Below, piece after piece: positions 5,031-30,031 of a stretch of DNA of 64,000 bases. The stretch is from Owenia fusiformis. Lineage: Eukaryota; Annelida; Polychaeta; Sabellida; Oweniidae. A program made the translations under genes and the position numbers. The DNA lies in NCBI GenBank assembly GCA_903813345.2, contig CAIIXF020000007.1, positions 31,793,564 to 31,857,563 of the forward strand, in the 5' to 3' direction. Position 1 is the stretch's first letter, and each line of letters begins with the position of its first letter. Below the pieces are notes generated by a model that saw only the letters and a program-made list of their open reading frames with translations, did no database searches and was not told where the DNA came from.

Positions 5031-5055
5031 CACAGCAAATATTTCCCAATGTTGA
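5031..5055 (+). repeat. Left terminal inverted repeat
   Basis: 25 bp starting CACAGCAAATATTTCCCAA. Pairs with 30007-30031 with one mismatch (T versus G at position 20). Preceded by TA at 5029-5030. Confidence 0.95.
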
Positions 5056-5425
5056 TTTAACAAAAAATCAACCTTGATTCAACATTGATCTTCTCAAGCA
5101 TTGAAAAAGCAATATTTGCCCAAGTGTTATTTCAGTGCTGAATCAAGCTTGATTCAGGCTTGAAAAAATCAATGCTAAATCAAGGTTGAGAATATTTTGG
5201 GTAAATCAAGGCTAAATCAATGTTAAATCAAGCTTAAAATAAGCTTAATCAAGGCTGAGGATATTAATGCTAAATCAAGGTTGATGATATTTTGGGTAAA
5301 ATTATGGTTGAATAAATGATCAATCAAGCTTAAAGTAAGCTTAATAAAGGTTTAGGATTAATACTAAATTAAGGACTGATTTAATAATAAATCAAGCTTG
5401 AAACAAGCTAATTAAGTTAGAAGAT
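5045..5425. repeat. Left subterminal repeat cluster
   Basis: Many direct and inverted copies of ATCAAGCTT, AATCAAGGTTGA and GCTAAATCAA in about 380 bp, including palindromic AATCAAGCTTGATT near 5142-5155. The same vocabulary occurs at the right end and not elsewhere. In CACTA elements such repeats are the sites bound by an accessory protein; that role is inferred here. Confidence 0.9.
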
Positions 5426-5691
5426 GTTTAATGCTAATTCTATGTTTTTTTTATTCAAAAACATAATAAACACACAATTTTATCGAAATATATATTATAA
5501 TTTATTTTCCCATAACTTATTTACATTGAATTTAGTATGTAAGTACTACTAGTATATCTATTTGGCCTGCTCGCTATCTCTGTGATTCTCTCTTTAAGTA
5601 TTTGTGTAACAAAGGAACACATTTGTTTCGGAAATGATCAGCAGTCTCTATAATATTGTCAAAGTTGCAGCACAGAAGGATATACTACTCT

Positions 5692-8600
5692 CTATTCGTC
5701 TGAAGTCCTTGTATTTGTCATGGCGATGGCTTCTGTTTGGATCTTTTTAAGGTCCTCCCATCTTGTGTGGTAACTGGAATTATGAATGTCCTATACATTA
5801 ATACACTGTAAGTATAATATTCTTTACCAATATTATTACAAAATTATGCATAAGCATTCTACTTATTATTACTTATCATGTTACATGTGTTATCTTTATT
5901 ACTTTTGACTCAATGTGTAGACTTCAAAGGTTAAAAAAGTAATATTTATCAAGTTCAATAATTTTGAATTCTATTACCATTGGAGTAAGATTGCTGGCAT
6001 ATAGGGCACCATATATAGGAATTACAAAAGTTGTATTTATTAGAAGTGTGTAAATTAAATAAGTTTAAAAAGTCCATATTGCCCATTTACACTTACCGTT
6101 GAGCAACTCCTTTGACATCCTCAAAGAAGGATGTTGAATCCTTTAGGCCTTTGTTGCCTTCTACACTTTCCCATAATTGGGACATATCTGTTGCCTTCCT
6201 CTGAAAGAAGTATTTGATTCCATATTCAAAATGCCCTTTGTATGCAACATTCAGAAAAGGAAAGTGAATGCTTCCACGCTCTCAATGTCTATCTATATAC
6301 TCTAGGAGCTAGCAAACATTTATAAGACATCTCGAGTACAAAAGGGTTGAGGCCTGTAATTAGTAGATGGGTTTCTAACATCCCCAAAAAGGCAACTCTT
6401 AAGTGACAAATTTGGGGCTACCACCAGGGGGCGCTTTTTGAAATGCCCCTAAAATTAGTTTTAAATGACATCTCGAGTACATCAATGAAACCTTTGTCAA
6501 AATGTTCCTTTGGACCCTCTGAAACATTATGAGTCCTTAAGAGTAGCCAATTTTGGGGTTTAACCCATTTCTGAGTGAGTTAAAGGTCACCATGGATACA
6601 GCCACACACAATCAAAATGCTGTATCAGAGCCATGTGAAGTTGAATAAATTTGATATTCTGATATATCCATAAAATATGTAAGAAGACCTTTCTAACAAG
6701 TCATAATACATCAATATATGACAACTGAATCCAGAGATATTGAACTTTTTGCATCAATTTTGATCTGAAAATGAACATTTTCAAGTCTCGTCTAATTTGC
6801 ATTCATAGCTTCAGGCAAAAGGTGACAACTTAAACAGCTCAAAATAGTATTCCAAGAACATTTCCAAGGTTTGTGTAATATTGTAATACAACTATATAAT
6901 GCTGAATCACTATTTTGTAATTTAAATATGACGTTATAGTGCCCTACCCCTTCAAAATAGAGGAAAGCAGGCACAGTCAATGTAATCATTTTGCAGCATT
7001 AAGTTGGAAACATGTAGCACTAGAAAGTGAATCAATGCATCCAAAGCATCTTCATATGTTGCTTTACATTGTAATTTATGTCTTACTAGAATATTGGATT
7101 CTCCACATTTTATATGTAAGTTGTTGATATAGTGCCTCTCTTAAAATGAAATCAGTGAAATATTATGTAATCATGCAGTCTAAATATTATAATTATAACA
7201 ATGTTTATAAGAAATCCTCACTCTCTGATGTGTCTATGTTTCTCACTCTCTGATAAGTCCATGTCCCACACGTGTCTAAAAATAACAAGCGATATTCAAA
7301 GGAAGTCATGTGACATCCGTTAAATATCAAATGATATTCACTAGTCACGACTTTGTTCCATGTAATTTCAAGTTAATGTAGTTGTGGGAGTACATTGTTA
7401 TGGTTAATCAGACATCAATAGTTTGTTGTTCCATTAATGTAAGTGAGGAATATATTAGTGAATAATAAAACAAATATTTAATTCTATTTTCAGTGAATAC
7501 CTGTGACACTTTTACAAGATGATATTCCACTAGCCCTTAGGGATTTCTGGAATATTATTTGTGAAAGAGGTACAAATATTCACCTCAATAGAATTAAGTA
7601 TTTGTATTTTACTATTTCACTGTCAGATTCTCCTTGTACTGGAAATAATAGGTGAAATCAACGGAAGTCCAAGTCTAGCATCAAATATCAAATGATATTC
7701 ACCAGTCACGACTTGGTCCCGTATTATTTCAATTTTGTATAGCCCAGGAGCACATTGTTGTGATTGATTAGACATCAGTTATTATTCAAGGAATGTGAGT
7801 GAGGAATATAACAGTGAATAGTAAAACAAATATTTAATTCTATTGAGGTGAATAAATGTGGCACTTTCACAAGATGATATTCCATTAGCCCTTCGGGCTT
7901 CGTGGAATATCACTTGTGAAAGATATAAAGGTTATTTAATGGAATCGAAGGTTTTTGATACAGGGTATATCTGAGGGAAATACAATATATCTACCCAAGG
8001 GACAGGAGGAACCGAGGGTTGATATAATGTATTCACCTAGGGATATACCCTGTATCAAAAATGGAGCATTTAAAGGGGCAACAAGGCCTGTAGAGAGAAA
8101 ATTCGAAATTTGTTACTTTTTTGATCTATCAGGTCAACATTTGGCTTAACACCTTCTTTGGCATACCTATTTTCTTGTAAAATGTATGGATAAACTATCA
8201 ATTTCAGCATTAAGAAGTGTAAATTCAATTAAATGATTCTATAAAGGGAGTCCCACTTATAGATTTTTAAGATCTACTATGTTTCAAGAGGAATATCAGC
8301 TGAAATAGATTTCAAATAGTGTTCATCCAGGGGGTTTCTTTGTAGATAATAAAAATATAAGTAAGTCTTGATGAAATATCCAAACTTAAATATATTTTGA
8401 CACTGGTTCATGATTGTTGAATTGCACTAATTGTTTCACCTTTAAACTGAGATTATGAGGAATAAAAGCAAAGTCCCCTGGCTCAGTATCTACCCCCTGA
8501 ATTTTTGATGTTGTAGATCAGATGAGCGGGTGATATATATATCATCCGCTCACATCACATATCAATTATATTCCTGCGTGTTATTTACCTATAACACTAC

Positions 8601-11600
8601 TAAGGGTGGAATAAAGACAGGTATTCACCTCAATAGAATAGACTAAATGCGAGTAGAAATTATCTTGACTTACGACATTAAAGATTTAAAATTCAAAAAT
8701 ATCTTTCTTGTGTTGGGCAGATAATATTTTATTTTACTGGACATTTGTATAACTATCAAACACATAAGGGTAATATGAAAAGTGAACCACTAAAACTAAT
8801 GAATATTCAAGTTTACAAGAACTTTGTAATACCCTGCTATGTTATTTTCCCCAAATTACCCACCTAGTGGCGAAACTGGTAACTACCTTCTCACATCTGA
8901 GTAATTAAATATTTGTAAAATATTTGACGGAACGAATTGTTGAAGAGGGCCCCTTAGTTCTCATCATCTTACCATATTGCAGTTCTCATTCCCGGTCCAC
9001 ATTAAGCCACAAAGCATCGGAGAAGAGAAGAACAGAATGCTTTTATTAAGATCGCACAAGCATACTGGAAACGGCCTTCACTATGTTAAGTTCACATTGA
9101 TTGAAATACAGATCTCAACATTTAAGGTATATGCCTCAAATGACATGGGACACAATTTAAATCTTGTTACTCAGATGAAAAATATTAATAGTTATATAAT
9201 GTTTATAACATGCCTTTGTCTGGATTGCATGAAACATTAGTATTCTATTATAATACATGTACTATATTGAAAACTTATATATGTTATATAAAAGGTGTAT
9301 GAGTCCTATATTCTAGTAAAAGATAAATTACAATGTCAAACAACATATGAAGATGCTTTGGATGCATTGATTCACTTTCTAGTGCTACATGTTTCCAACT
9401 TAATGCTGCAAAATGATTACATTGACTATGCCTGCTTTCCTCTATATTGAAGGGGTAGGGCACTATACGTCATATTTAAATTACAAAATAGTGATTCAGC
9501 ATTATATAGTTGTATTACAATATTACAAAAACCTTGGAAATGTTCTTGGAATACTATTTTGAGCTGTTTAAGCTGTCACCTTTTGCCTGAAGCTACGAAT
9601 GCAAATTAGACGAGACTTAAAAATGTTCATTTTTAGATCAAAATTGACGCAAAAAGTTCAATATCTCTGGATTAAGTTGTCATATATTGATGTATTATGA
9701 CTTGTTAGAAAGGTCTTCTTACATATTTTATGGATATATCAGAATATCAAATATATTCAAGTTCACAAGGCTCTGATACAGCATTTTGATTGTGTGTGGC
9801 TGTATCCATGGTGACCTTTAACTCACTCAGAAATGGGTTAAACCCCAAAATTGGCTACTCTTAAGGACTCATAATGTTTCAGAGGGTCCAAAGGAACATT
9901 TTGACAAAGGTTTCATTGATGTACTCGAGATGTCATTTAAAACTGATTTTAGGGGCATTTCAAAAAGTGCCCCCTGGTGGTAGCCCCAAATTTGTCACTT
10001 AAGAGTTGCCTTTTTGGGGATGTTAGACCCACATCTACTAATTACAGGCCTCAAACCTTTTGTACTCGAGATGTCTTATAAATGTTTGCTAGCTCCTAGA
10101 GTAATACATTTGTTGACACATTCAAAGAAGTTATTTCACATTAGGCCTACTTTTCAAATTATTGTTAAATGTTCATTGTTAATTAACTGATTCTTCAATG
10201 GATATATTAACTAGATCACCTATAGGCTGTATAGTGTATAGTACCCCAGACAACTTCAATGGAACAACTATTCTTCTTGAAATTTTTAAGATTCATTCTG
10301 GAGGCAATTTCCAACATGGAAAACTGTATTTTATTGACACTGAAGTGTTTTTAAAAAAAAGCTATCAAAATCATAAGATTATGAATTTTGATACAATATT
10401 TAATTTACAAGTTGGAAATTGTCTCCAGAATAAATCATGAAAATGTCAATAAGAATGGATGTTCCATTGCAAATATAGATTAAAAACATGACTGCATCAT
10501 TGAACCTGTTCTAATAATTGTATTTTCCAATGCTATAATACTCACCATTGCCATGAGGCATTGCTGCACATCCTCTTCTGAAGAGGTGCCAGTTGGAATG
10601 TTACTAAATACAGCTCTTCTTAGGTGTAGTAATGTTTTACCCTGCATATGCTTGCCCTTTTGGTGCATCTAAAAGTAAAAGAATTGTGAATCATGAATGA
10701 ATATGCTGTATTGGATATTCAATTTTCTTACCATAAATCTTATCTGAATAAAATCAGAATAGAATAAGATTCCTCCCTGCAGTCATTCACTACATATTTC
10801 ACGTTCATATCACATGTTTGTATTTTATAAAGTAACAAGTATTTCATTAATTGTACAACCAGTTTTCTCCTTTGAAGTTTGTTAATTTTTATTGCATGAT
10901 TAAATTATACACATGTTTTATAAAATGTATAATATAAACTACAACGTTACTGTAAAAAATAAAAACGTCTGCGTTTGAAGATTTGAATGGAATATGGCAT
11001 TTTGTAAGACATTTTCTCTTAAATTACAACTCTTTAAATGACTATATAGTATATACCTTGTTTTTTGTTGCAGAACGATAATAAACCATTCTTTCTCTAA
11101 TATACGTGAGGCATTTGTTTATACACACAGAACTCGTTCTTCTGCGGTCCTCGCCCATCATATCTTTCACTAAGCGCTGCAATCAAAAATAGACACATTT
11201 GAATAATAAGTGTAGAAAAGTAGGGATGATCAAGAGAGGGAGAAGTGGGTAAATAGTGATATCATACAAGAGAGGAAGAAATGGTAAAATAAATATGTAT
11301 ATCATACACGAGAGGGAGAAGTGGGGTAAAGGGAGAGATCATACAAAAGAGGGAGAAGTGGGCAATGTTGTGATCATATCATACATGAGAGGGAGAAATA
11401 GGCAAATAGTGAGATCATAGAAGAGAGGGAGAAGTGGGAAAATGGTGAGGTCATACATTGTATTACAAGAGAGCGATATGTGGACAAATGGTGAGGTAAT
11501 GCCAGAGAGGGAGAAGTGGGTAAATGGGGAGATCATACAAGAGAGTGAGAAGTTTGCAAATAGTGAGACCATACATGAGAGGGAGATTTGGGCAATTGGT

Positions 11601-14177
11601 TAACAATCAGAGATGTGGGTAATTGGTGACAGATACAAAGGAGTGAGATGTTGGCAAATAGTGAGATCATACAAGAGAGGGAGATGTGATTAATTGGTGA
11701 TAGATATGAGGTAATAAAAGGGAGATAATAGCAATTGGTGAGATCATTCAAGAGAGGGAGACGTGGGTAACTGGTGAGACCATACAGGAGAGGGAGAAGT
11801 GGGTAATTGCCAATTGGTGATATATACAAGGAGAATGAGATGTGGGTAGTTGGTGAGACCATACAAGAGGGGGAGAAGTGGGTAATTGCCAATTGGGTGA
11901 TATATACAAGGAGAATGAGATGTGGGTAATTGGTGAGACCATACAAGAGAGGGAGAAGTGGGTAATTGCCAATTGGTGATATATACAAGGAGAATGAGAT
12001 GTGGGTAATTGGTGAGACCATACAAGAGGGGGAGAAGTGGGTAATTGCCAATTGGGTGATATATACAAGGAGAGTTAGATGAGGGTACTTGGTGAGACCA
12101 TACAAGAGAGGGAGAAGTGGGTAATTGCCAATTGGTGATATATACAAGGAGAGTTAGATGAAGGTAGTTGGTGAGACCATACAAGAGAGGGAGATGTGGG
12201 TAATTGGTGATAGATACAAGAAAGTAGATGTAGGTAATTTGTAATAGATTCAAAAAGGGGGATGCGGGCAAATGGTGAGACCATACATGAGAAGGAGAAG
12301 TGGGTAATTGCCAATTGGTGATATATACAAGAGAATGAGGTGTGGGTAATTGGTGAGACCATGCAAGAGAGGGAGATGTGGGTAATTGGCTAATTGCCAA
12401 TTGGTGATATATACAAGAGAATGAGGTGTGAGTAATTGGTGAGACCATGCAAGAGAGGGAGAAGTAGGTAATTGCCAATTGGTGATATATACAAGAGAAT
12501 GAGGTGTGGGTAATTGGTGAGACCATGCAAGAGAGGGAGATGTGGGTAATTGGTGATAGATACAAGAAGGGAGATGTAGGTAATTGGTCATAGATACAAG
12601 AAGGGAGGGCAATTGATTAGACCATAAAATAGAGGGAGTTGGCAAATGGTGAGACCATACACAAGAGAGGTAGATGTGGGCAAATGGTGAGATCATACAT
12701 GTACAGGGAGATGTGGGCAAAAAAATCTCTAAAGTGCACACTTTATTTCAGGAAAACAAAAGATTTTTACAATAATTTATTATTTTTTTCTATAACAATG
12801 GTTAACCATTCTTATTATTTGGGAGAATTTGAATTTTTCACCCGTTTTTGCACTTTGAATCCATAATAACTTCCCTAATTTATAACATATCATGACTATT
12901 TTGGGAATAAGAATAAATTGGTAAATTGTATATGTTGCTTGTAATTTTGTCACCCCTTATAAATTTGATTCTGCCTTTAAAGTTGACACTTACTATGAGT
13001 GAAGCAGGGTTGTGTCTTGGTGGCAGGGCGCAATAGTATCGCATGAAATACTGTCCACATAGATCTTGCAACTCATCCTACAAAGAAACAATAAATTTAG
13101 TTACAGTGCTCACCATAAATAAATAACACCTGAATTTGCTGAAGTGAGGATTCCCCATGTTAAAATTCAGAGAATTTTCAAGAGGTCATTCATCAGTTGA
13201 TGAAAGTATACAAAATCTAAAATATACAAAACTTACAGGATGTGTAGACATTATTGGAAATTATGAAGTGTCAAATCATAATGGTCTGGAAATGGTGATA
13301 GAAAAGTCAGGTGTCATTTATTTATGGTGAGCATAGTACAGGTGTATTTATGAACATCTACAAAAACTTCAAAGACTTTGTTATACTTACAAAGAAATGG
13401 ACAAATATGTCTGTAGAACTAGAAATAATCAGTTAACAGGTTTCCTATTACCATAAATGTGGGGTTGATTTGAAACTACTTGCGTGTTGACCAGGATTGT
13501 TGAAATCTTGGGGTTGAAAATTACTAAATGATTATTTAGATAAAATTCAGCTTTGTGTCAAGTACTGACAACATTTTAAAACCCCAAGATTCCAACATAC
13601 ATGTACATGTAGGCTACTAGAAGTTGTGAAAAATCAACCCCACATTTATGGCATTGGGGGTACAGGTTTCCATACCTTATAATCTTTGATAATGTCAGAT
13701 TTGGGCCTCTCAAGCCTGTCCAACCTCTTCTCAATTTTCTTTAGCATACTATAGACCTGCTGCATAGACTGCAAAATGAAATAAGAGTATTAGCTGGTTG
13801 GTTTTTGGGTTTATTGGAAGACATGACAACTTATCCCGTTCCCGGGAACGGGATAAATGACAACGGAACGGTGTTCATGTTGCGATTACTGTACTGTCTA
13901 TACTGGGCCTACATTTCTGATTGAAATGCATCAGGGAATCATCGGTAAAATCTATTTTCCGTATATTGTACAACTGACAATGAATGTACATGTTATATTC
14001 ACCTTAGGCTCCAGGCCTATATAGTCTATTATATTATTAACTTACAGGCTCGGCAGGCGCCGCTGTTGGCCTAGCATTATCTTGAACATGAACATGGTGA
14101 TGGTCTTGATCTGTACTGCCGGGTCTAGGGCTAACACCACTTCCAGCAATGAACATGTCTTCCTGGCTGTTTTCCAT
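5692..14177 (-). CDS. Accessory protein of the 25-kb transposon, unknown family (245 aa)
   Basis: Minus-strand exons 14046-14177, 13676-13768, 12994-13077, 11057-11176, 10546-10668, 6097-6200 and 5692-5773. Every junction is GT-AG and phases agree (0,0,0,0,0,2), giving 245 codons and a TAG stop. The start ATG at 14177 gives MENSQEDMFIAGSG, followed by a His-rich DQDHHHVHVQD stretch. Residues ~45-75 are a probable coiled coil (LKKIEKRLDRLERP). Next come DLCGQYFMRYYC, basic GEDRRRTSS, and a tail rich in charged residues (RWEDLKKIQTEAI). I recognise no domain. It is divergent from the transposase with 720 bp between starts. Being intact, spliced and inside the TIRs, it is probably an element-encoded helper, for instance a binder of the subterminal repeats. 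A captured host gene is the alternative. A candidate poly(A) signal (AATAAA on the minus strand) is at 5501-5506. Confidence 0.8.
7952..8062. repeat. Short hairpin within the nested element
   Basis: TTTTTGATACAGGGTATATC at ~7952 and its exact inverse near 8043-8062, about 70 bp apart. Possibly a tiny MITE. A separate near-perfect palindrome (GGTGATATATATATCATCC) lies near 8529. Confidence 0.7.
8720..8910. repeat. Dispersed repeat, copy 1
   Basis: Shares an ordered series of blocks with 26610-26765 in the same orientation: ACTGGACATTTGTATAACTATCA, CACATAAGGGTAATATGAAA, CCACCTAGTGGCGAAACTGG. Both copies lie inside the 25-kb element. Confidence 0.7.
10257..10469. mobile_element. MITE-like inverted repeat
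   Basis: Left arm CAATGGAACAACTATTCTTC through GGAGGCAATTTCCAAC pairs with right arm GTTGGAAATTGTCTCC through GGATGTTCCATTG. About 60-bp arms and no coding capacity. It lies in intron 5 of the accessory gene. Confidence 0.75.
11205..12725. repeat. Minisatellite with ~36-bp units
   Basis: Roughly 40 copies of a unit like GGTAATTGGTGAGACCATAC plus AAGAGAGGGAGAAGTG, with longer composite units carrying ATTGCCAATTGGTGATATAT. It fills the intron between accessory-gene exons 3 (12994-13077) and 4 (11057-11176). Several long open frames cross it only because the repeat lacks stops; they are not genes. Confidence 0.95.
13107..13333. mobile_element. MITE with ~27-bp TIRs
   Basis: Starts TGCTCACCATAAATAAAT and ends with its inverse ATTTATTTATGGTGAGCA, 227 bp in all, non-coding, in intron 2 of the accessory gene. 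Confidence 0.85.
13451..13651. mobile_element. MITE with ~21-bp TIRs
   Basis: CCATAAATGTGGGGTTGATT at the left is inverted at the right as AATCAACCCCACATTTATGG; 201 bp, non-coding, in intron 2 of the accessory gene. A second internal pair (CTTGGGGTT / AACCCCAAG) adds to the hairpin. Confidence 0.85.
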
Positions 14178-14897
14178 TTTCTTATCACATAAACTGGAAA
14201 TTTCAAATTTAAAATATGCACATAATGATAAAGCTCTCTTTTATCTATCAAGTTACGAATCTTGGCCACGGCTAGCCTAACTCACTCTCATTTTCGATTT
14301 TGTCCGAATTTCGTCTGGTCAATATCGCTACTCGGATTTGGAACCCAAAATAATTGTTTCTACGTATAAAAGTTGAACATAAATATTGCCCTTGTGAACT
14401 TATATATATCCACGTGCTATTGTTTACAAATATATAGGTAAGTGGGCGGGTACAAAGCATAAAAACAAAAGAAATATTTACCTTATATCAATATCACAAA
14501 GCAGCCAACCAATGGACGTCGCGTTCACAGACCAACCACTGCGATTACTACGCATTTAATAACATAATTCTATAACATCTATTAATGTCGGCCAATGGCA
14601 ATGTTGACAAATGTTTCATTTTTAATAACTGTATTAAGTTTTGACTTCTTTTCATGATTAACATTAGATTTGATGTTTAAAAGTAGATGGGGAATGCCAA
14701 ATTCTCGGGGATTATATCCTGCGTATATGAGTGTGACGTCATCAATGTTTAGTGCGCCATATTTGATTTCGATAAAATCAAGATGAACATTTGAAGATAT
14801 TCAAACTCCACATTTATTATTGAAGATGTCAACATGCCATTGAAAAGAATATTTTGATAGTGACTCTTTTGAACGCTTACAATACCACACTACTGGT
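14178..14897. promoter_or_regulatory. Shared promoter interval between the two transposon genes
   Basis: 720 bp between the divergent ATGs at 14177 (minus) and 14898 (plus). It must hold both 5' untranslated regions and the promoter(s), unless untranslated exons lie elsewhere. A full CRE palindrome TGACGTCA is at 14734-14741. No nested repeat interrupts this interval, unlike nearly every intron of the element. Promoter function is inferred from layout. Confidence 0.6.
14734..14741. promoter_or_regulatory. CRE-like palindrome TGACGTCA
   Basis: Exact 8-bp CREB/ATF consensus about 160 bp upstream of the transposase ATG, in the divergent promoter interval. Chance occurrence is possible. Confidence 0.4.
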
Positions 14898-17800
14898 ATG
14901 GAGACATTCAGATGCAGACCGTGTGAGGTATCATTTGACAGGAAGAAGAAACTTGAAGATCATTTGACAACATCGAAACACAAACGTTTAAAACTGATTT
15001 CTCAATTTCCCGAGGCCGAGCAAGAAACTGGTGGTAATGATGCTCGTGTTGACAACCCTGGCCCTGCCCACGGATGTATAAATGGAAGTAATGATGAAAG
15101 TGAAACTGACGCTGAGCTGTTCCAAGAAGTAGATCTAAGCCTAGATGATGATCATTCTAGGCCTTGGGCTATTGATGATGATATTGTGATGTCTGAGTCG
15201 GAGTCTGAGGATGATTATGCTTATGGGCCGTACAGTGATGATGAGAACATGTACAATAGTGATTTTGAAGAACTGGAAGGTAAATGAATTCAAATGAATA
15301 AGTGGGGTTTGTGTAAAAAACCGGGTAACCGGGTGACCGGGTACCTTACCTTCCTACCAGGGTTAGGAATTTGATTTTTTCATTTCATGCCTCAAAATGC
15401 CCAACTGACATCCCACTGAACGTACCAGTGACACAACCAATCAAGCAAACAACCAAACAAGCACCAAAATTTATCTACCAATAAATGTTAAAGGAAAACT
15501 ACGAAAAAAGCACTCATTTTCACGTTTGAATCGCCTATTATCACCCACATAGCAATTTTATATGCTGATACGCTCAAGAAATTTTCAAGATTGCTGTTTT
15601 TCAAGATGGCCACTAATTATGAAAACATGTTTCGTTTGGTGGGATTTGCTACTCCATGGAGTTGCTGTTTTTCTAGTTTGATACTGTATATCTCTAAAAA
15701 TTGATATTTTCAGAAAAGTTCATGTACATGTCATGAATGCCAACATTCTACGTTTACTGCTAATATGATGTATAATTCATGTAATTGCACTGAATAGAAT
15801 TATATCAATTTCATTTCAGATAGAGAATACTACCCCTTTCCAACAAAGGCTTTTTATTTGTTGTATGTTATGAGAACATCTAGGACACATCATATGGTAA
15901 GTGTACAATATAAACAGACAGATTGGGGGAAAAATAAACAAAAAGGTTACTACTTGTATTTATATTTATCTTCAAGGCCTCTGTAAAGTTTTGACCACTT
16001 TGGCTAATATATAATAAATAATGTAATGTAATAAAGATGCGGTAATGTGAAACTTATTTGTCAAATTAAAGCACTTGAAAATTGAAGCACTTTTCCAAAA
16101 ATTGTCAGCTAATTGAGCCTATCAAGCCTTTACACTGCAAGGATGCAAAACAAAGAATTACTTCCTTTGGCCTTATGTGCTTAGTCAATAAATACTGTCT
16201 GTTTTGGATATCATTAATTGACTATGAATACTACAATTGTTTGTTATAAATCAAAGTGTTCAAACTACACTTTTATTATATCACCACCAAAAGTGTTATG
16301 GTCTCAGTTTTTTGTGACGGCGGTTGGTGGTTGGCTTCCGGCAGTTGGCGTCCGGCGGTTGGCGTCTGTAAAAATTTCTTACAACTTTCAATAACTTAAC
16401 AAATACTGTTTAGACTGACTTCATTTTTTCCTGAATCATCTACAAGTTCACAGAAGTTCAAATCTGACTTTCTGACATCTGACCTTCAATGACCTTCTCA
16501 AGGTCAAAAAGGTCTTTTTTCATTTTGCTTCAACTTCAAATTGAACAATCTTTTTTTTTTAAATCATCTACAAAGTCTCAGAAGTTCATATCTGACTTTA
16601 GATTTGAGATTTGACCTTCAATGACCTTCTCTAGGTCAAAAAAGGTCAGAAAGGTCTTTTTTCAACTTGCTTCAAAAGGACTTAAAAGAATTTCAAAATC
16701 ATCTTCAAGATCCCAGAAGCTCAAATCTGATTAAGATTTCAGTATCTGACTTTCATTGACATTCTCAAGGTCAAAAAGGTCTTTCCAACTTGTTTTAATT
16801 TTTTTTAAGTGGTGTTTTGTCATGTTAATGCCTTGTTTTTTCATTTCTTTTAGTCTGATCCTATGATGAACATGGTTATTCATGCCATGAGGGAGTTGAG
16901 TGTAGAAGGTGTTCCTTCGTTGCGACAGTTGAAGGCCTTTGAAATCCCCAATCTAGAGAGCTCATCAATGATAAAAAAGGCATGCAGGCATACATTTTTT
17001 TAACATTGGAATATAGTTTGATCATAGATTTACAAGGTGTTTGATGAAGTTTTCATTGTTAATTACTCTCAATGCAAATAGGCAAATTAAAACATAACTG
17101 AGTGGTAATCCCGAACTTATCCCAGAAATCGGATTGCACAACCAGGCAGACACAGAAATGAAAAAGAGGGAAATAATTTTTGCAGCTATTCAATGCTTTG
17201 GTCATATTGTATAGTTTATTAAATGAACGATTTATTTACAGCAAATTCTATGTCTGCAAGATACCCTTCATGCTATTTGTGCTCCTACATGTTATCTGTG
17301 CTCCTCTTATTTAAACATTGTTTAATTTACAGTTCCAACATAATGAAGCTCCAGTTTATATGGTTTCCCCTGGCAAAATAGCACAGATGATTGTATCCAA
17401 TCCCAGGATGAAGCTAAACACTAGCCAGCAGGTTGAAGAAGAAGAAGTGCAATCCAATGTGCCCAAAACACAAAGCAATGCCAGACGATGGCATAGACTG
17501 AACTTTGAAGGTAAATGAATTTTAGATGTGTAGGTTCATGATGGTGGCAATTGTGATACATCTACATTCTCCATAGTATGCCCTTTTCTCGGAAACATTC
17601 ATGAATGATTTAGTGGTATTTTATGAATACATAGCATTTTGACAGTCTAAATCTTTTTCTAAATGTCCAGAGTGTAGTAAATTGATTACATTTTCAGAGG
17701 GAAATATCAACATCCCATTTAACATATTTGCGGATAGTTTTGGCACAGCCACAAGTAAAAGATGGGCTCCAGCAGTAGGTGTACAGATGCAGCCTTCAGG

Positions 17801-20800
17801 TATTTTCATTAGAGTTATAGAGAATTATGTGTGAATAACACCCACAGGCCTCTAGGAAAGTGAAACAATGAGAACTCTTTGATATGTGGGAATAGAAGGC
17901 AGTTTTGTGATTTAAAGTTGGAATGTCATTCTTTTATGCACCATTTATATATGACAAGGAATGGAATGAATCAAAGAATTCTAAAATTGAATTTTGCAAA
18001 GGTGGGCTGTATCGAAACATTGTTATGAAGTATAGTGTAGCTATATGTGCATGTTTGTGAACTTCTACTGTTTAGGTTTCTCCACAGATTACAAGAGCAA
18101 ATATACGTTTCCTCTTGGCATCTCAACAGATGTCTCAGAAGCAGTTTTGGTTGGGGATGTATGCATGGAATTGCAAGATATTAAAGGGTATTTATTTACT
18201 ATTTTTTTATTTAATACCCGAAACAATATTGATTTAGTTTTTTCAAAGTTATGACAAATGCTATAGATTGGTCCATTTGTTGAACACCCTGTACAAAGTT
18301 TAATCTTATATCTGTATATACATAGTGGGGAATCAAAATGAGGGCACAGCCGCTGACTGCGACTTGGGTAACTGTTCAACGTAGTCCAGCGCCAAAATTG
18401 AGGGACAGTGCCTTCCACATCAATGGACAAAACTGAGGAATCAAGGTATTTTGCTACTGTTTCAGCTTAATCTGGAAAACCGATTATCTTCTAATGATCA
18501 ACAACAATGGATACAGAGTAATATCTAAGTCACCGAATAGACACTAAAATAAAATTCAAAATACCTTGATTCTTCAGTTTTGTGCTTAGATGTGGAAGGC
18601 ACTGCCGGATGTTTCCCCATTTTTGCTCTGGGGTGAGTTGTAAAATTATGCGAGTCGCAGTCCGTGGCTGTGCCCTCATTTTGATTTTCCACCGTGATAT
18701 ATGATAAACTTTATTGATGAAGACATAATCAAGAAATAATGTTCATTTACAGAACAAAAATAGAAACATATGATGCAAAGAAAAATGTTGTTGCACACAT
18801 TACCTGTCATGTTGGGTGCTTTGTCACAGATTTGATGGCCTCTTCAGACCTGTGTAGCCACCTTGGTAGTAGTGCTAGGATGTACTGTCCAAAATGCAAA
18901 GTAAGTTGCATTTAGAATTATCATAAATATATTTGTCAGTAGTACTCTCTGTGATCCTAAGAATCAATTAATTTATTGCATTATCAGTTATTTATCTGTA
19001 AGTCTGCAAATTCAGTAGGCTATCTGATTTGATTACTAATAACTATTTTATGATACTGTAACATTTACATTATCATTTTACACCAAAGGTAACTAAGGGT
19101 GACTATAGCCTGTGCCAGTCTAGAACAACAACAGACACAAAGAAAGACTTGGCTAAGTAAGTATTTTATGCTGTCAAAATAAGACATTATTGTGCAAAGT
19201 GTTGAAATCAATAGTTCTTCAATGTATCTAATGTTCTTTTATCACAAGTTACACTAAATTTGGTTGGATGAAGTAAAGTTATCTGTTCATATTCCTTATT
19301 ATGATCAATAGCAGCTTTTGAGATTTATCAATCTCATTTGGTTAAATGTATCTCAACACTTTTACCAGGCCACCGTGTCTCTGTAGCAGATTTTGACAAG
19401 TCTAGCTTGTATATTTTTGTTTTGACTTTCAGTTTAAATAGAATGGTCAGTATGCAAGAAAGGCGTAATTACCAAAGAGGAACAGGAACAAAAGCTGGAG
19501 ATAATCCTCTGTTTGAAGATAACTTGGAAGACATCAATCCACACAGGTAAGATATACGAGATGAAGACTGTACCAAATATATAAAAGCAAACCCATACCC
19601 TGACTTTTCTGTATGGAAAATCATGTTTTAAGCTCTTTCTCACTGGTAAGAATCAAATCGACAGACAAACAATGTCTCTGATTGGTCAAATCGACAGACA
19701 AACAATGGCGATTTCAAAATTTTCTAAACAAGCTTCGAATACTTCGAATAATTAAATGTTGATCTCTGGCGTTTTAACCAATATCATAGCTTGTTATGAC
19801 GTAATATGTGTGTCATCGCTAAAACTCTGGGGTTTTCCCTCCTCTTATTATACAGGGTGGGCCAAATAAAACCAATACCCAACTTCAAATCAGGATAAAA
19901 ATAGCTACATTCAATATGGTACATTGACTCACATATCATTTTAAAGGTTATATATTTTCAAACAATTTGGTATATAACACTTTGTCATGAAATCAATAGT
20001 AATGTTTTATTATACTTATTTGGGAGGCCGGGTTGCTATTTACGGTCTCCAGATTTTAGGGGGAAAATAGTAAATCTGCGGAATTATGTTAATTTTTTAT
20101 TTATAGAATATCATTTTTTGTTAGGTGAATACATGCTTGGATATTGATATTTGCATCATTGTGTGACTTTAATTATTGTTTATGAATATCAGTGCTGTTT
20201 AATATCATTTTATTTATTTATTATTTAACCAATTTTAACAATTGCTCAATTTACCCCCTCCCCCTTTCCCCCTCTGCGTCAACAATAAGCTCCAAGTGGC
20301 AATCTATCGATAGCCTTATTGAGAGATGTCTGTTGAAATTCATTCAACATTAGGATTCTGTTTCAGCTCATCAATGCTGTTTATTGGATGCTTGTGATTG
20401 TACCATTTCCTTGAGATTTAGTCTAATTGCTCAATGTATGGCAATCAACCACATTAGCATCGGGGCTGTTGGCAGGCCAAGCATCGAGATCAATCAAATT
20501 GACACCTTATTCGCTAAGGAATGCCAATGTCTCCTTTGATCTATGGTACGAGGCATATCTTGTTGGAAAATAAAATCCTCGTCACATATATGTTTAATGT
20601 CTTTTAATAGAACCCTTTTGAGTACTTATTGATGGTAAACAAAACTGAAATTCATAAAAAATATGTTTAGTCACACAACTATGCACATATAGAACCATGT
20701 ATTCACCTAACAAAATGATATTCTATAAATAAAAAATTAACATAATTCCGCAGATTTACTATTTTCTCCCTAAAATCTGGAGACCTTAAAAAGCAACCCG

Positions 20801-23800
20801 ACCTCCCAAATATGTATAGTAAAACTTTAATATTGATTTCATGACATAGTGTTATATATCAAAATGTCCGAAAATGGATAACCTTTAAAATGATATATAA
20901 ATCAATGTATCATATTGAACCTAGCTATTTTTATCCTGATTCAAAGTTGGGTATTGGTTTTTTTTGGCCCACCCTGTATATAAGGCTTATCAAGTTCAAA
21001 TATAAAAGCACTACGTCAATTATAAAGTAGTTTAATTCGTTGAAAAAAAATTCAAAATCGACATTTACTGTCCGCCATCTTAGATGAGAAGGTAACTGCC
21101 GTTACCGCATCTTGATTCTGACCAGTGTTTCTACTCACAACTCCAAAAGCATTCAATGTTATACGTGTACATTAGTTAACAATAAAGTGTACAAGTTTTG
21201 GAAAGATAGGTTGCAGTAATTCAATATGGCTGAGACTTTAATTTTCAAAATAACACTTGTTATAAATAAATGATAATATTTATTTATGTAAATAAATAAA
21301 CCAAAACTATAAAGTGAAAAGTATTGTTTAATTTTCCTTAACCCTTTAACGGTTAGCTATAGAGAATTACATCAACTGTTAGAGGGGGCAGATCTGCTAC
21401 TGTATGATCTCCATAAGGAACAATCATACGAGGCCTTATTGTGTATCATTGAAAACGAAAAGCTTATTCAATTTTTTCCTTACTTTTAACTATATTGAGC
21501 CATTATTAATGAGATACTAGTATTCATATTGTAAGAACATAGAGGTTCATCGATTCAAGTCAAAACTACTGAAAAATAGGACATATCAGTAAGTTTAACC
21601 AGCTATAACTTTCATCCTAGAGGTGTTAGAGTCACAATGGTTTCACTAAAAGATGCCTTATTCAATTTTAAGAAAAGCCAGAAAATGTCAAGTCACGAGA
21701 TCGATCAACCACAGATCTGCCCCCCTAAATTACCATTTAAGGATTAAATTGTACATGTAGATAGCTTAATTTAATTTAATTTGTCATGAAACTACTGTAT
21801 TTTTAAATTTTAGTTTGGTACCTTATGGGACACTTCATATGCTGTCTTTAGGCCTCATAAAGCAGCTGGCCAAGGCCATTACCAAAAGGGTCAATAACAC
21901 AGAACTGATGGAAGCAGTCACCACAACCTTCAACAGTTCCCTCAAAACAGTGAGCAAATTAGAACTATTCAAATTCTGCAGTTATTAATCTCTTGCAAAA
22001 AGTGTGAAATATGGTAGGCTAGCTGGCAGAATTACTGAGAATACAGTATTTCCTTAGAAATTGTAATGAAATGGTGACTTTTCTTAACAAGTTACAGATC
22101 AAATCACTGATCATAGTTCCTGACATGATAAAAATCTTTAAATAAAATTATAATAATGAGTCACTAGACTACATATAAAATAGAAAGAATGTATATATGA
22201 TGTTGACTGTTTTCCTTTATTTCCTTTACAGTTTACCAAGTACATATCAAGCAGACAAGGAAAAGATTTTAAAGCATGGGTAAGTGTTGCTGTACTAATA
22301 GGGCTGTCACATGCACAGGGGTTTTCTTAATGACACCCAGTGACTTCATAGTCAAGAAAAAATTAATGATTTTAACAGATACCAACTCTCTCATAAGTCA
22401 ATGCCTCACGTGTACTTTAGGACGATTGTATGATAACAAAGTTGGTTTATTATTCGCTCACAATGGATATATTTTATTTTCAGATTCAGATTGCACCTTT
22501 CATTTGTGATGTCTGTAAACCTGGTGACAACCTAGCAGCTGCTGCTATTAAATTGGCAAAGGTATGACTTCTTTCTGGTTTTAAAGCACCATTTGGTCAT
22601 TCAAATAGATGTTGTCTACAGGTTTCCATCCAAACTGTTTCATGGATTCATATGAAATTTTCAAGGATGTTTCACAATGTGAAAGTTTGAAAGTGATCAC
22701 CTAATCATTGGTTGCCAAGGGTCACAGCAGCCACAATGGCATGAAATCACCAAACACCTAGATATTGATGATTTTGCCTAGGAATGACCTTTACCTCAGA
22801 TCATCTAATCATGGGTTGCCTACGAAGGAGATGTCCTTTTAGTAGACGGAATGACAGATAGATGATGGACAGACCACCTTGCTTTATATTTGTATCTCTT
22901 TCACTGTTACTTAGTATTTCTTTGTTTATAGCTTTGTAAAGCAGCATTCAGAAATGGCAACAACATTGCAGATTTGGCTGAAGATTACCATCACCATCTA
23001 AAAACATCCATTCCTGATCTTATGTCAAATAAGGTTCATACATTGCTACATGTGGTGAGTTTCAATCCTACCTAAAAGTATGCTTAGTTATTGTCATCAA
23101 TTTAATGAGTGAGGGATGTGGTGTCAGTTTACTTGTATGCACACTTCAAGATTAGGTAACAGCAGCACATAGTAAAACTAAAACCTGTCATTGAATTAGC
23201 AAAGAATGTTTTTGCTATAATTCACAACTATAACTGATAATTTGTATTTTACTAGGTTTATTCAAATTCACTCCCATACTTTGGGATTTAATATACAGAA
23301 GGCTCATCGGATTTAATTATATTTGACCTTCAGTAATTTTTTCACTAATTCTATAACCTATTTAATTACAGATTCATTTTTTGACAGATTTAACTTGTAA
23401 TTTATAGCAAAAATTATCCTTTTTAATTCAATAAGATATTCTTTAGCTGCTCTCCATACCAATTTAAGGAAGAATTAAAGAATAAGTACTAACTACCTGG
23501 TATATCCATAAACTATATACTATATTATATATGTGTATTGTGTATGCATGATCAGTTTATACTCATTTTTAGAGGGAAGATATACAGGAACACGGTCCAT
23601 TAATGGAGTTCTCTGAAGATATATTTGAGAAGAGCCACAAGAATTTTAGGTGAAAATAATTTTCAAATATTAAAGGCACAGTCTTACACTATGCTCAAGC
23701 TAGTAATTACAGGCTGTCACTTGGTTGGTTTGTGTTTTGCTGTCATATTGAAAATGAAAAACATTAATAGGCAAGATAACCCATTTCATCGTTTTCCCCT

Positions 23801-26800
23801 TTTATAAGAGTAGACTGTGTATTTTTAAAAGGTCTTTCAAAAAACATGTTGTATCTATTTATTTAAAACAGCAGAAATTCAACCACATGGTCCACCTTTC
23901 AATGAGGACATAAACTTATTTTGGTTTATTCATGTTTTAAATTATATTTGATGCAAAGAGTGAAAACTTAAATTCTAGTCAATCTCAGAGTCTATGATGC
24001 ATATAATGTTTGTTTATTTCAGACAACATATCCATCAGAGACAAAATAAACATAACCTTAGCAGAGATACAGCCCTGCAACAGGCAAGGGAGATGGCCCT
24101 GGAGCATATTGTCACAGGGGGCTATATCAAGGACGCAGTATGGTAAAAGAATTTAATTTGAAAATGCAAAACCTTTTTTGAAAAAACTTCTGATTCAAAA
24201 CTTTTACTAATTTCAAACATTTTTACTACATTTTTGGCTCACACAGTGAGCCTATGGAATTGACCAGGCGTCTGTCCGACCATCCGTTGGGCCAATGGTC
24301 CGTCCGTCAACATTGGCCGCACAAATTAAATTGCTGTTCAGATTGAGTCATATCCACATTCATTTTATGCATATCCATAATGCCAATAAGTTGACTGATT
24401 CGGGTCAATTAACATGGCAGGTATACGAGGGGGGATTCATAAGTAGTGGGACAAATGCTGTAACTTACTCATATCAAACAGATTTTATTAAAATTTGGGT
24501 TGACATGGTAATCATAGACTTCAAGCAAATCTCTGCAGGTCTCTAATACTGAACACTTCTTCAAGGCATTAAATTTGATCACAGTGCAAATGTTTATATG
24601 TGATCCTCGCTTCTAGTAGCTCAATTTCCATATAACCCTCATGTGTCTGATACTTATACTTATGAAAATATGTTCAGTAAAGCAAAATATTATCTGTTCA
24701 CTAAAATGTCTATGCGGTCTATGGGGAATCTCCCGAAGCTAGAAGTCACATTTTTAAAGAAAATTAATTTTTCAGTGGATAAACACAAGGAGCACACGCG
24801 TCTCGAACTCGCAACCTCGTGGTTACGGCACCCAATCGCCTAGCTTGAAACCACATTTCTAGTTGTAATTTTATATGTAGATTTCAAATATGGTATTAAT
24901 TTGACTGAATTTTGAATTTTTAATGATGTAAATCAAGATTATTTCTACTCGCATCTAGGTTATTTTCACCTATCATCGCCAAGTTTGCCCAGTTTCGGAG
25001 AAATTGCCGATTTTGACGTCAAAAAATCAAATTTTCTGTAAATATCAGACACTTTGTTGAAGTAGAACTTTCAAATAATTGGTAGTAGTTTATACTGTAT
25101 GTGCAACATATGTCCTCTGAAGATTTCAAAGCTCTGAGAATTAGAGTTTTTGGTGTTTACTCTATAAAATTTGACAAAAAGCAGGACAGTCATTTTCAGG
25201 GAACATTCTCATGTTTAAAGTCAATGGCAGGTTTTGTGATTGACAAGTTTTTCAAAGTTTTTCACTATACTTGATCATTTCCTGCAATCTACAAGTTGCC
25301 AGGAGCTCAAATCTGACCTTAGTTTTGAGAATGACCTTCAGTGACCTTCGAAAGGTCAAAAAGTTGATTTTTCAAATTGAGTTTTTGGATGTCAATTTTG
25401 GTCACTTTAATCACAAAAGACCTACTGAGCTCTGAATAAGTAAAATGTTCAAGGTCAAAGGCCATCAAACTAGGTCACAAACTGTGCTATCTAAGTTTCT
25501 CAAAGTTCGAGACTTCAAATCGAAATCAATAATTGAGCCAGGCCACAGGAAAAGGGGTCTTATCACAGAATTTTTCATTATTTTGATTTTTTGTTTATCT
25601 TAAAAAGCACAAAGAGATATTTCAAATGAGCCATGGATTATGTCTTAACAATTTTCCTTGCAGATATAGATCAAAAAGAGGGATTTGAATTTAGTACATT
25701 TTCCTCTTAATCTTGGGCACATTTTTGGCTCTGTAGCACAATTTTAATTATTGTGATAAGACCGGTTTTCTTATGGCGAGGCTCAATTTTGTTTGAAAGT
25801 CAGGATATACATTCCTCTGAAGGTTCTACACTGTGTGAGCACAGGACCGTGGATCCTTTGTCTTCTAAAATTCATTTTTGGTCCATTTAGTAGCTTTATA
25901 GATAATTTCATATGTCCTCCATCATGTCCATTGTAATAACCAATGTCACTGTAAACGGTTCTTTTATGAAATGATTTTGTAATAAAAATCAATCAAGTTC
26001 CTCAAATTGAAAATGGCCATCATTTTTATCACAAAAAGCTTGCCTTAAAGGCTTTCTTACAATTATTTTAAGGAGACAGGCTGGATCCAGTGTACTAAAA
26101 GAGGACACCATAATATCAAAGTACTTAGGTATTCCACAAGGTACAGGAACATCCACCCAACAACTCACTAAACTCAACAGGGATGAAAACAATAGAGTAC
26201 TTTCTACTGTAAGTATTTCAGCTATAAATGAAATAATAATGGTAATGAAAATATATTTGGGGGTTGAAAGATTGACGGACGTGTTGTCACATCCATCACA
26301 TCCCCATCTGACAGCCATGGAATAAGATGATCTGGGACAGTGCAATTATTAACATAAATTTGACAAATTTTGAAGCTTCTCTTTGTGCCTTTAAATGTAA
26401 GTGATAGTCGTTTAGACTAGAAGTAATCTTCATTTTGATCATTAAACATGAAATAAAATTTGTATTAGGCTAAATTAAATATTGTATCTGAATGCAAGTA
26501 AAATTACATCTAGAAATGTGGTTTCAAAAATTGTTAATCAACTTTAAAAACTTAATTTTTCTTTGAGAATGTGACTTCTAGTCAGGGCGATTTCTTTTAG
26601 TGGATAGATACATTTTTTTCCTGGACATATTTTCATTTGTATAACCATCAGATACATAGGCGTAATATGAAAATTGATCCACTATATGATCCAATGCCAT
26701 GCTATCAGATCCGAATTAGCCACCAGGCTGAGAAACTGGTAACATCCTCCTGGCATCTGGGTTATTGACAACTCTTGGTGTGTTTTTATAGGTGAAAAAT

Positions 26801-27445
26801 GGCATGGAAGTAATAACAGCCCAATGCATCCATTTAGCCAGTGGTGCTACTGTCAAGAATGGGGATATCATTGAACTCAATGATACATACTATGTAAGTT
26901 CAAACTACTAGGATACAGCAATATTGATTAACTCAGAATAATTATACAGTATAATCTGTTGGAGGTGACACATTGTTTTGTCTTTTTGTGTTCAGTATCC
27001 ATGTGCAGTAAATCATTGGGTGATATTTTCATTCAGTTCTGTTACCATGGCAATAAGAATCATTAACAGTTTATTCAAAATTATTATTATTGGTTATGAA
27101 AACAAATAAAATTGTGCCTGAGAATCATTTCTACAATAAAAAGTAAATCCACTCATTTCATTTCAGATGTTCAAGGAAGGGTACAGAGAGAAAGTGAATG
27201 GGGAAGAATTTATACTAGTTGACAAAACATCTCATAAAGAAACACTACTTTTGCAGGAAAAAATGACCCTTTTAAAAGTAGTTCAAGCCCCATCTATGAC
27301 AATACCCTTAATGCAGCATCAAGTGAGCAAAGTATCTGTTGTTCATTCCTGTTCAACAGAGAGGTGCTACTTTAACCCAGTTTCAAAATCATTTAAACAT
27401 CAGGGAGGAAAAAAATATATATTAAACACTTTCGCCCTGTATTAG
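14898..27445 (+). CDS. Plavaka/CMC-type DDE transposase, 18 exons, 801 aa
   Basis: Exons 14898-15279, 15820-15896, 16854-16979, 17333-17510, 17698-17799, 18076-18187, 18753-18900, 19089-19156, 19433-19546, 21814-21949, 22232-22279, 22484-22561, 22932-23054, 23573-23649, 24023-24142, 26073-26208, 26792-26893, 27167-27445. Phases agree throughout with no stop; intron 3 uses a GC donor. Order: N-terminal C2H2/U1-type finger (CRPCEVSF...HLTTSKH), acidic linker, FPTKAFYLLYVM, first candidate catalytic Asp at D267 (FADSFGT), second at D352 (FVTDLMASSDLCSHLG) beside a CPKCK knuckle, INPHRSLVPYGTLHMLSLG, then candidate catalytic Glu at E579 (FSEDIFEKSHKNFR) and EHIVTGGY. The tail VVHSC...YILNTFAL matches the Plavaka C-terminus. 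Block order and spacing follow fungal Plavaka transposases as I remember them; the DDE assignment is by alignment to those. Expected to cut the element ends in the nucleus. Confidence 0.92.
16310..16800. repeat. GGTCA-rich dispersed repeat in transposase intron 2
   Basis: Iterated TGACCTTCAATGACCTTCTC and AAGGTCAAAAAGGTC blocks after a GGCGGTTGGCGTCCGGCGGTTGGCG segment. An inverted relative lies at 3440-3720 (GAAGGTCAAAATC, ACGCCGAACGCCGAATACC); others are near 25300-25500 and 36200-36800. Non-coding. Confidence 0.7.
18325..18692. mobile_element. MITE with long inverted arms
   Basis: GTGGGGAATCAAAATGAGGG at the left is mirrored by CCCTCATTTTGATTTTCCAC at the right (25 of 27 bp). Inner arms also pair (GGCACTG / CAGTGCC and ATCAAGGTATTTTG). 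368 bp, in intron 6 of the transposase gene. Confidence 0.85.
19853..20976 (-). mobile_element. Decayed Tc1/mariner-type element
   Basis: TIRs CAGGGTGGGCCAAATAAAAC and its inverse end at 20976, with TA flanks at 19851-19852 and 20977-20978. The inverted similarity extends over 100 bp. On the minus strand about 20300-20590 reads FIFQQDMPRT and, in another frame, DLDAWPANSPDANVVD, matching the FQQDxAxxH and WPxxSPDxNP blocks of mariner transposases, with stops and frameshifts. Lies in transposase intron 9. Not active. Confidence 0.85.
24440..26650. repeat. Inverted-repeat segment around transposase exon 16
   Basis: Blocks at 24700-24880 (AGAAGTCACATTTTTAAAG, CAGTGGATA, AACCACATTTCTAG) recur inverted or rearranged at 26490-26620 (CTAGAAATGTGGTTTC, GAATGTGACTTCTAG, AGTGGATAGATA). 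Probably two insertions of one family on either side of exon 16. The rest, including 25270-25760, is GGTCA-rich repeat with no gene. Confidence 0.55.
24782..24848 (-). repeat. tRNA-derived (SINE-like) fragment
   Basis: On the minus strand it reads AGGCGATTGGGTGCCGTAAC, then GAGGTTGCGAGTTCGAGACG, resembling a tRNA from D-arm to a B-box (GTTCGAGAC). No full cloverleaf or acceptor stem is evident, so it is a SINE remnant rather than a working tRNA. Confidence 0.5.
26610..26765. repeat. Dispersed repeat, copy 2
   Basis: Diverged direct copy of 8720-8910 (for example CATTTGTATAACCATCAGA, GTAATATGAAAATTGATCC, GAGAAACTGGTAAC), in intron 16 of the transposase gene. Confidence 0.7.
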
Positions 27446-29500
27446 ATACTCTATGTTCTAGCAACTGTCGCCATGTTCATTTCCATGAACATTTCCTGCC
27501 AACAAAAAACCTTCAGTGGTTGTAGGTGTTCACTTCAAAGAGTGGGATTTATTCAGAAGTGAGTAGAGTTTGTGTGGAGGAAGGGTGTCCACTAGAGATA
27601 GGTGTTCACTAATAAAGGTTTTACTGTTGTAAATCAGTCTGATTCATAAGATAACATGACATAATAGAAGTCTTGTATAAAGTCAAACTAGGTCACAAAC
27701 TATGTTATCTCAGTTTATCAAACATTCGTGGCGAGGTACGAATCAATTTGAGTTATAGTATCAAAATTTCAGAAAAAACGGTTTTGGTTGGGCCAGACTG
27801 CCATGGACTTACATGTTAGAAACTTGCAATATTCACTTATTTTGTGGTTTATAAAAAAGCGTAGAAGTGTACAGTTGGTTGAATCTGTCTGAAACCCGAA
27901 TTGCATGGGATGACTCTGTCAATGTACATGAAAATGTTGATTGTCTAATGAATAATTCAGTGTTTTAAAGAATTTTAGCATGGCATCAGTGGAGATTTAA
28001 TCTAAAAAAGTTGTAAAGTCATAACAATTATTTAAGTGACATGCGTGAGACTTCAGAGCTGTAAAGAAACTCCACTATTGTCAAAATTTGAACAAACTGG
28101 AGATTTTGATTTTGATCTCTTGAAAGCCTATGATGGTACTTAAGAATTGAAACTTCGTGACTTCTGTGTAGGTTGAGGTTTGCAGTTTACAAGGTGTGAT
28201 CTTGAAAAAAACATAATATGTGCTCTGTACTGTTAGAGTTAATGAATAAAGAATCTGATGCAATAAGAAGGAAGACCCAAGAGAATAAAATCTATCATCT
28301 TCATAAAATAAGGCAGCTTATTCTATAATATTGTATTCGTAACTACTTTCTTATCAGGCCCTACCCAGGTGGGATCGAACTGCTCCTCCAAACAAAATTT
28401 TTAAAAGCATGCAGTTTTTCAATATTCTGAGCACTTTTCAAGTAATTTTGGGTCCCTTGAATTTTTGGAAAGTGAAACCCCACCCTTGGCAAAAGCTGGC
28501 TACGGGCTTGACTTAATTATCAATCTGGAGATTCAATTATTCAGGCTACCCAAAGCAGATAATAAGTATATAAATAATAAATATCAAGACATTGTACATT
28601 GGTTTTTTAATGGACTTCTTCATGGGTATATAATATGTATTTGCAACAACAATGAACTTCCAGCAATGTATTGCTAGACCAGATTTTCTTTAACAATTGC
28701 AATGGCGTCTAAATGAAGTCTAAAAAACGACCATAGACATTTCTGAAGAAGATCCGATAAAGACTTACTATGGTCTCCTCTTTACGCTTAAGATATATGA
28801 AAAGTAATGAGATATACATGTTAGTACTAAAATGTATTACATTTGTGATTATTTTATTTGTTCATCGGAAAATTACATATTAATCAAATATAAATAAAAC
28901 AGAACGCTAATGATTTAAACATATGACACACAACGTCTTTTGTTTGTTTTTCATTTTATCAACAAGTACACCTAAAGCCAGAGTAAATGAGGACGATGAG
29001 GACAGAGGCGTACGTATTTCTTATTGTGTGTAGGCAATTTCGAAAAAAAATTGTAAAAACAGGCATTCATTATTGTAAAAAGGGATAATATGGCTCAACT
29101 TAAATTAATGTTTAATAAAGATTAAATCAACATTGTTATCCTCGTACTCCGTGGCAGTGTAGTCTTCAACATATCACTGCAGCGGGCAGATCGTTTACTG
29201 TAAGCGTAGCATGGCAACTTCGAATAAACCATTGATGTGATTGGTTCTTGTCCCATGTTCATGTCACGTGATTGTGTGAAATCACCAAATTTTGGAGATT
29301 TCTTCATCTGCCCGCCGCAATGTCTATTCCGAGACACTGCATGGGAGTTTGTGTTATCCTATGCCAAGTAGTTTTAAAGAGCTAGAGATAAGTTGGTTAG
29401 ATATATCCCGTAATCCTGATTTTGAGGTTTCCATATCCAGAACCTCCATATCTCCCGCCATATTCCCCGGCTTCCGAGCATATCTTCCCGCTTCAGGTAA
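27446..29500. other. Right flank of the transposon, no gene seen
   Basis: About 2 kb between the transposase stop and the A-rich tract. A candidate poly(A) signal AATAAA is at 27611-27616. A diverged GGTCA-type repeat lies near 27670-27800. Around 29170-29320 are an inverted pair GCGGGCAGAT / ATCTGCCCGC and a CACGTG E-box. I see no supported coding region. Confidence 0.6.
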
Positions 29501-29504
29501 TTGA

Positions 29505-29750
29505 AAAAAAATGTTAAATATTTTTTTAATTTGAAAAACAAATTGAAAAAAATTTTGAAAAAAAAATTTTGGAAAAAAAAGCTGAAAAAAGATTTTGAAA
29601 AAAGTGCAAAAATTCGAAAAAAAATTTGGAAAAAAATGGAAAAAAGATTTTGAAAAAAATTGCAAAAATTCGAAAAAAAATTTGAAAAAAAAGTTAGAAA
29701 AAAAATTTGAAAAAAAAATTTGAAAATAAAGTTGAAAAAATCTGAAATAT
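29505..29750 (+). repeat. Strand-asymmetric A-rich tract
   Basis: Irregular repeats of TTTGAAAAAAAATTTGAAA type, about 245 bp with long A runs and hardly any C on the plus strand. It lies just inside the right subterminal repeats. A Phe/Lys-type open frame on the minus strand is an artefact of composition. Confidence 0.9.
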
Positions 29751-29754
29751 GTCC

Positions 29755-30010
29755 TCAAGCTTGAATCAAGCCTGAAAAAATCAAGCTTGAGAAAATCAAC
29801 ATTGATTCATGCTTGATTCAATGTAGATTTTGGCTTGAAAATCTCAAGCTTGATTCAGTGTTGATTTTTCAGGCTTGATTCAAGCTTGAGAATATCAATG
29901 TTGAATCAAGCTTGATTTTAAGGTTGAATCAGCATTGAGGTTTTTCAATGTTGAATCAAGCTTGATATCAAGCTTGAATCAACCCTAATTTGCCATCAAC
30001 ATTGATTCAA
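29755..30010. repeat. Right subterminal repeat cluster
   Basis: About 255 bp made almost wholly of TTGAATCAAGC, AATCAAGCTTGA, GCTTGATTCA and CAACATTGATT in both orientations, mirroring the left end. It is denser and less diverged than the left cluster. Confidence 0.92.
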
Positions 30011-30031
30011 CCTTGGGAAATATTTGCTGTG
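30007..30031 (-). repeat. Right terminal inverted repeat
   Basis: On the minus strand it reads CACAGCAAATATTTCCCAA then GGTTGA. Followed by the duplicated TA at 30032-30033 and then reductase exon sequence. Confidence 0.95.

Follow-up and report, generated by a model that had tools for sequence, protein, structure and literature searches.

What is the 25-kb sequence that splits a host exon in the 64,000-nucleotide stretch of Owenia fusiformis DNA analysed here (the window), and how did it come to lie within coding DNA? We consider it very likely that the sequence is an autonomous-type member of a recently active family of cut-and-paste DNA transposons with TA target sites, most probably of the CMC/CMCT group. 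The locus presents exact ends, a TA duplication, an exon that is restored by removal, sister copies, subterminal repeats, and an open gene of 18 exons in phase, for which the assembly yielded a single full copy.

The first-pass annotation of this DNA had placed a 25,001-bp element at 5031-30031, with 25-bp inverted ends starting CACAG and TA on both sides. Direct reading of the ends and flanks bears this out to the base. The features of the borders are as follows (strand is given where one is assigned):

5031-30031: DNA transposon including nested insertions, 25,001 bp; at least ten further copies in the genome end in the same way, nearly all of them between two TAs
5029-5030: left TA target-site duplication, read directly
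30032-30033: right TA target-site duplication, read directly
5031-5055, + strand: left 25-bp TIR, 24/25 match to the right end
30007-30031, - strand: right 25-bp TIR, 24/25 match to the left end
5031-5430: left subterminal repeat zone, with AATCAA 14 times, where the interior frequency predicts 0.8 per 400 bp
29742-30031: right subterminal repeat zone, with TCAAGCTTGA seven times and none in the interior outside both end zones

When bases 1-25 are compared with the reverse-complemented right end, the first 19 all match, and the inverted ends begin CACAGCAAATATTTCCCAA. With a slash at the border, the left junction reads ...AATAATA/CACAGCAAATATTTC and the right junction GAAATATTTGCTGTG/TAGGCC; the termini are thus of the CAC...GTG type (CACAG...CTGTG), with TA duplicated. 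The subterminal repeats occur in direct and inverted orientation and are nearly all restricted to the ends: the two end zones hold nine TCAAGCTTGA-type motifs, and the other 24.3 kb of the element holds none.

The host exon serves as an independent ruler for the insertion. Its two halves, each identified by the join reading, splice sites and protein alignment, are:

4896-5030, - strand: host exon, 3' half
30032-30060, - strand: 5' half of the host exon, together with the duplicated TA

It had been proposed that taking out the element and one TA would leave a 162-nt exon. Indeed, 4896-5030 joined to 30034-30060 gives exactly this length, and the bounding host splice sites (TTACAG/GGC and ATACAG/GTTAGC) are intact. 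The minus strand reads ...KNIPREAYYLTTKVGRYLPEVSETFDF... across the restored join and, after the removal, GLKNIPREAYYLTTKVGRYLPEVSETFDFSAERTLRSVDESLERLGLTYIDVIQ within the 162-nt exon. The joined host protein aligns with L-galactose dehydrogenases (PDB 8scc, 7smi) at E about 1e-77 over 240 residues, gapless at the join; the precision of the empty site is inferred from this continuity of the host protein. When an empty allele was sought in the assembly with the joined flanks, only the two flanks were returned. The remaining recognised host exons are open, with plausible splice sites. Since the host coding sequence carries no other damage, the insertion may be recent or heterozygous, as this pattern suggests. 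Searched against the genome, the joined protein matched the host locus and, remotely, one other place at 27% identity, so this galactose-dehydrogenase-type gene appears to be single-copy, and on this haplotype it is probably inactivated by the insertion. Adjoining the host gene, at window positions 920-2427 on the minus strand, the reading NSPNPMLRPHLLVLPSKCVVIRCKIAQTQCCDHTS is repeated at 920, 1437 and 2323, in tandem or spaced.

Each end of the element was searched against the 498-Mb genome, a search for the 25-bp TIR that had been recommended at the outset. This revealed at least ten further long copies that share the termini, 3.7-14.6 kb in length, and they support the earlier reading of a cut-and-paste-type DNA transposon in a host exon. 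TA lies on both sides in nine of ten (3,656-14,575 bp), at unrelated sites, which excludes a chance origin of the ends. The tenth, on C2 (12,231 bp), has ends about 84% alike and GA at the left; C435 holds an eleventh right end of the family. There are also small derivatives of 264 and 464 bp, each TA-flanked on both sides. In the first 1.26 kb from the left end, divergence between copies is 0.3-2.8%, which indicates that the family has recently been active; the window copy differs from the others by 1.0-2.5% there and has 8 private substitutions. At C10:16094595-16103614, two short copies, alike in orientation but not in their flanks, are separated by 469 bp. Their left arms are 0.6% different, and a local hop is possible.

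The comparison of copies divides the 25 kb into parts that travel with the family and parts that do not:

5031-6297: left arm, part 1, common to short copies (96-98% to them)
6298-10103: nested element of 3.8 kb, not in other copies, whose 818-bp inverted ends are 96.6% alike; near-identical copy at C11:7573799-7577609, and an uninterrupted site in short copies
10104-10673: left arm, part 2, common to short copies (93-99%)
10674-29397: 18.7-kb core, not found in short copies, from comparison with copies
11231-12721: tandem array in the core, 36/79-bp units
16273-16800: repeat with many copies genome-wide, in an intron
19849-20981: nested 1.13-kb high-copy element with inverted ends of about 350 bp (TACAGGGTGGGCCAAA) and copies elsewhere
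29398-30031: right arm, common to short copies (85-94%)

The two nested insertions (6298-10103 and 19849-20981, borders approximate) make up about 4.9 kb, and without them the element measures about 20.06 kb. Because these are younger elements, what originally moved was probably a unit of roughly 20 kb. This means that the boundaries of the 25-kb transposon first described stand exactly, and its size as a mobile element has to be reduced to about 20 kb. The ends of the 3.8-kb nested element start CTCTAGGAGCTA; a near-100% copy lies on C11 and several more match at 94-97%, so this element too has recently been active, and inside it, at about 8070-8450, lies a separate 380-bp interspersed repeat. 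The 1.13-kb nested element has at least 35 copies at 86-97% and looks like a Tc1/mariner-type non-autonomous element. Insertions also account for the length of the long family copies on C4 and C26. The short copies have a middle segment of their own, different from the core of the window copy, which means that they did not simply arise from that copy by deletion.

Three things are added here to the first-pass annotation: a putative transposase gene, the subterminal repeats and a likely superfamily. The putative gene lies in the core on the + strand, at 14898-27445, and comprises 18 exons and 797 codons with no internal stops:

14898-15279, + strand: exon 1 (zinc-finger-like and acidic region)
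15820-15896, + strand: exon 2
16854-16979, + strand: exon 3 (GC donor)
17333-17510, + strand: exon 4
17698-17799, + strand: exon 5, with a candidate for the first catalytic D (FADSFGTATSKRW)
18088-18187, + strand: exon 6, resembling the relatives on C329 and C215; phased
18753-18900, + strand: exon 7, second D candidate (FVTDLMASSDLCSH) and CPKC
19089-19156, + strand: exon 8, weakest exon call, by phase fit
19433-19546, + strand: exon 9
21814-21949, + strand: exon 10 (VPYGTLHMLSLGLIKQL)
22232-22279, + strand: exon 11
22484-22561, + strand: exon 12
22932-23054, + strand: exon 13, with VHTLLHV as the H(3)H motif
23573-23649, + strand: exon 14, catalytic E candidate (EDIFEKSHKNF)
24023-24142, + strand: exon 15
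26073-26208, + strand: exon 16, by phase fit
26792-26893, + strand: exon 17
27167-27445, + strand: exon 18 with stop codon

All introns of the model are GT-AG except one GC-AG, and the phases agree at every junction. The exons were picked by hand with phase as a guide; thus, phase agreement is not independent support for the weaker exons 8 and 16, for which there is little homology support. The predicted protein begins with a zinc-finger-like segment followed by an acidic region. Downstream, the series FAD(SFGTATSKRW), VTD(LMASSDLCSH), CPKC, HTLLH and FEKSHKNF gives, read purely as motifs, the order D, D, C(2)C, H(3)H, E. Diverged relatives on C329 and C215 have conserved blocks in the same order, with several of the gene's motif blocks in common. 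The genome search found no other full copy of the gene, and for this reason the window element is probably the autonomous member of its family. Two loci on C3 match two of its exons at up to about 90%. As further observations, the regions C3:930500-940400 and C3:1447800-1457700 are 94% alike over 2.5 kb and hold an exon-10-like piece beside a helicase-like reading frame, and the relative on C329 is directly followed by an 807-aa reverse-transcriptase-like reading frame that cuts the old copy.

To which superfamily does the element belong? In Pfam, the joined + strand ORF pieces and one - strand ORF set gave weak zinc-finger or chance matches only and no transposase; the spliced protein and the two relatives likewise gave only such matches and no transposase model. 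Sequence searches of the PDB with the transposase protein matched no chain, and the Plavaka profile PF18759, searched directly in the genome, had no match. Since neither Pfam nor PDB profiles matched, the assignment follows motifs and architecture, by which the element most probably belongs to the CACTA/EnSpm-Chapaev-Transib (CMC/CMCT) group: it has CAC..GTG ends, TA, subterminal repeats, and the D-D-C(2)C-H(3)H-E order, which is the order described for CMCT transposases (PMC12730594). As for CACTA/EnSpm proper, the subterminal repeats in direct and inverted orientation are present, but in place of CACTA termini and a 3-bp duplication the element has CACAG and a 2-bp TA.

The closest structural precedent is Tgmt* from the F3'H gene of soybean, a putatively autonomous CACTA transposon of 20.5 kb (PMC2613891). 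Both are about 20 kb long, with CAC ends, subterminal repeats, a long intron-rich gene, a location in a host gene and defective relatives in the genome; unlike the window element, Tgmt* is from a plant, has a CACTA 13-bp TIR and a 3-bp duplication, sits in an intron, and encodes a transposase with recognised tnp2 and TNP1 domains. The nearest group by description is ESTA, the EnSpm-like transposons with TA duplications and a TET/JBP gene in rust fungi (PMC12730594). The TA duplication and the CMCT-type motif order are shared, whereas no TET/JBP gene is recognised in the window element. Plavaka elements, a CMCT group with 2- or 3-bp duplications and C(2)C and H(3-4)H motifs (PMC12730594), are similar in their type, short duplication, C(2)C and H-motif, but end in TGT..ACA or CATCA..TGATG rather than CACAG..CTGTG, and the Pfam Plavaka model is without a match in this genome. 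According to a review of giant transposons (PMC6431247), the red alga Chondrus crispus has enlarged En/Spm families of 16-20 kb, which are likewise unusually long CMC-type elements, with 4-5 ORFs each against one long gene recognised here; the same review puts its limit at 20 kb. With such long CMC-type precedents in soybean and the red alga, the window element is best described as representing a large family that is new but of a familiar type.

A TA-target transposon of another superfamily, such as Tc1/mariner, PHIS/Harbinger-ISL2EU or KDZ, is an unlikely reading. TA duplications are indeed standard in Tc1/mariner and present in some PHIS lineages, for example PHISTA (PMC12730594), and the CMC profiles are without a match to the protein. 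However, the CAC...GTG ends, the subterminal arrays and the D-D-C(2)C-H(3)H-E order suit the CMC group, and the duplications made by Zisupton and Kyakuja are of 8 bp and 7 bp, respectively (PMC12730594).

It is also conceivable that a short non-autonomous element of about 4 kb entered the exon and was enlarged in place to 25 kb by later insertions, as the two clear nested elements and the enlarged copies on C4 and C26 would allow. We regard this as improbable: the nested pieces account for only about 4.9 kb, and the 18.7-kb core, which holds an open transposase-like gene, substitutes for the middle segment of the short copies and does not interrupt it. Still less credible, to the point where we give it hardly any weight, is the idea that the interruption is a long intron of the usual kind or an artefact of assembly. 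The locus is known from a single assembly, but its borders are CACAG...CTGTG with duplicated TA and not GT-AG, the same borders occur at ten other loci, and the join is continuous against L-galactose dehydrogenases.

For the preferred reading, a mobile CMC-type element with its own transposase, we propose the following course of events. The 18-exon gene would encode a DDE transposase that binds the TIR and the subterminal repeats, cuts both ends, excises the element and inserts it at a TA. The same transposase may move the gene-less short copies with the same ends in trans, and the insertion seen here would disrupt the host L-galactose-dehydrogenase-type gene. More tentatively, and with considerable doubt, this could be an animal transposon of about 20 kb that is intact, is mobile to this day and represents its own CMC-related lineage with TA sites, in which case the only transposase source of the genome would lie within a single-copy metabolic gene and inactivate it.

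Rarely does one piece of sequence preserve an autonomous member of a large transposon family complete with its two ends, its target duplication and an open transposase gene. The present case also illustrates how nested insertions inflate the apparent size of an element. With the young short copies, one can test whether a single large source element drives the whole family, and the locus provides a TA-targeting, probably CMC-type animal element to compare with the fungal and plant forms.
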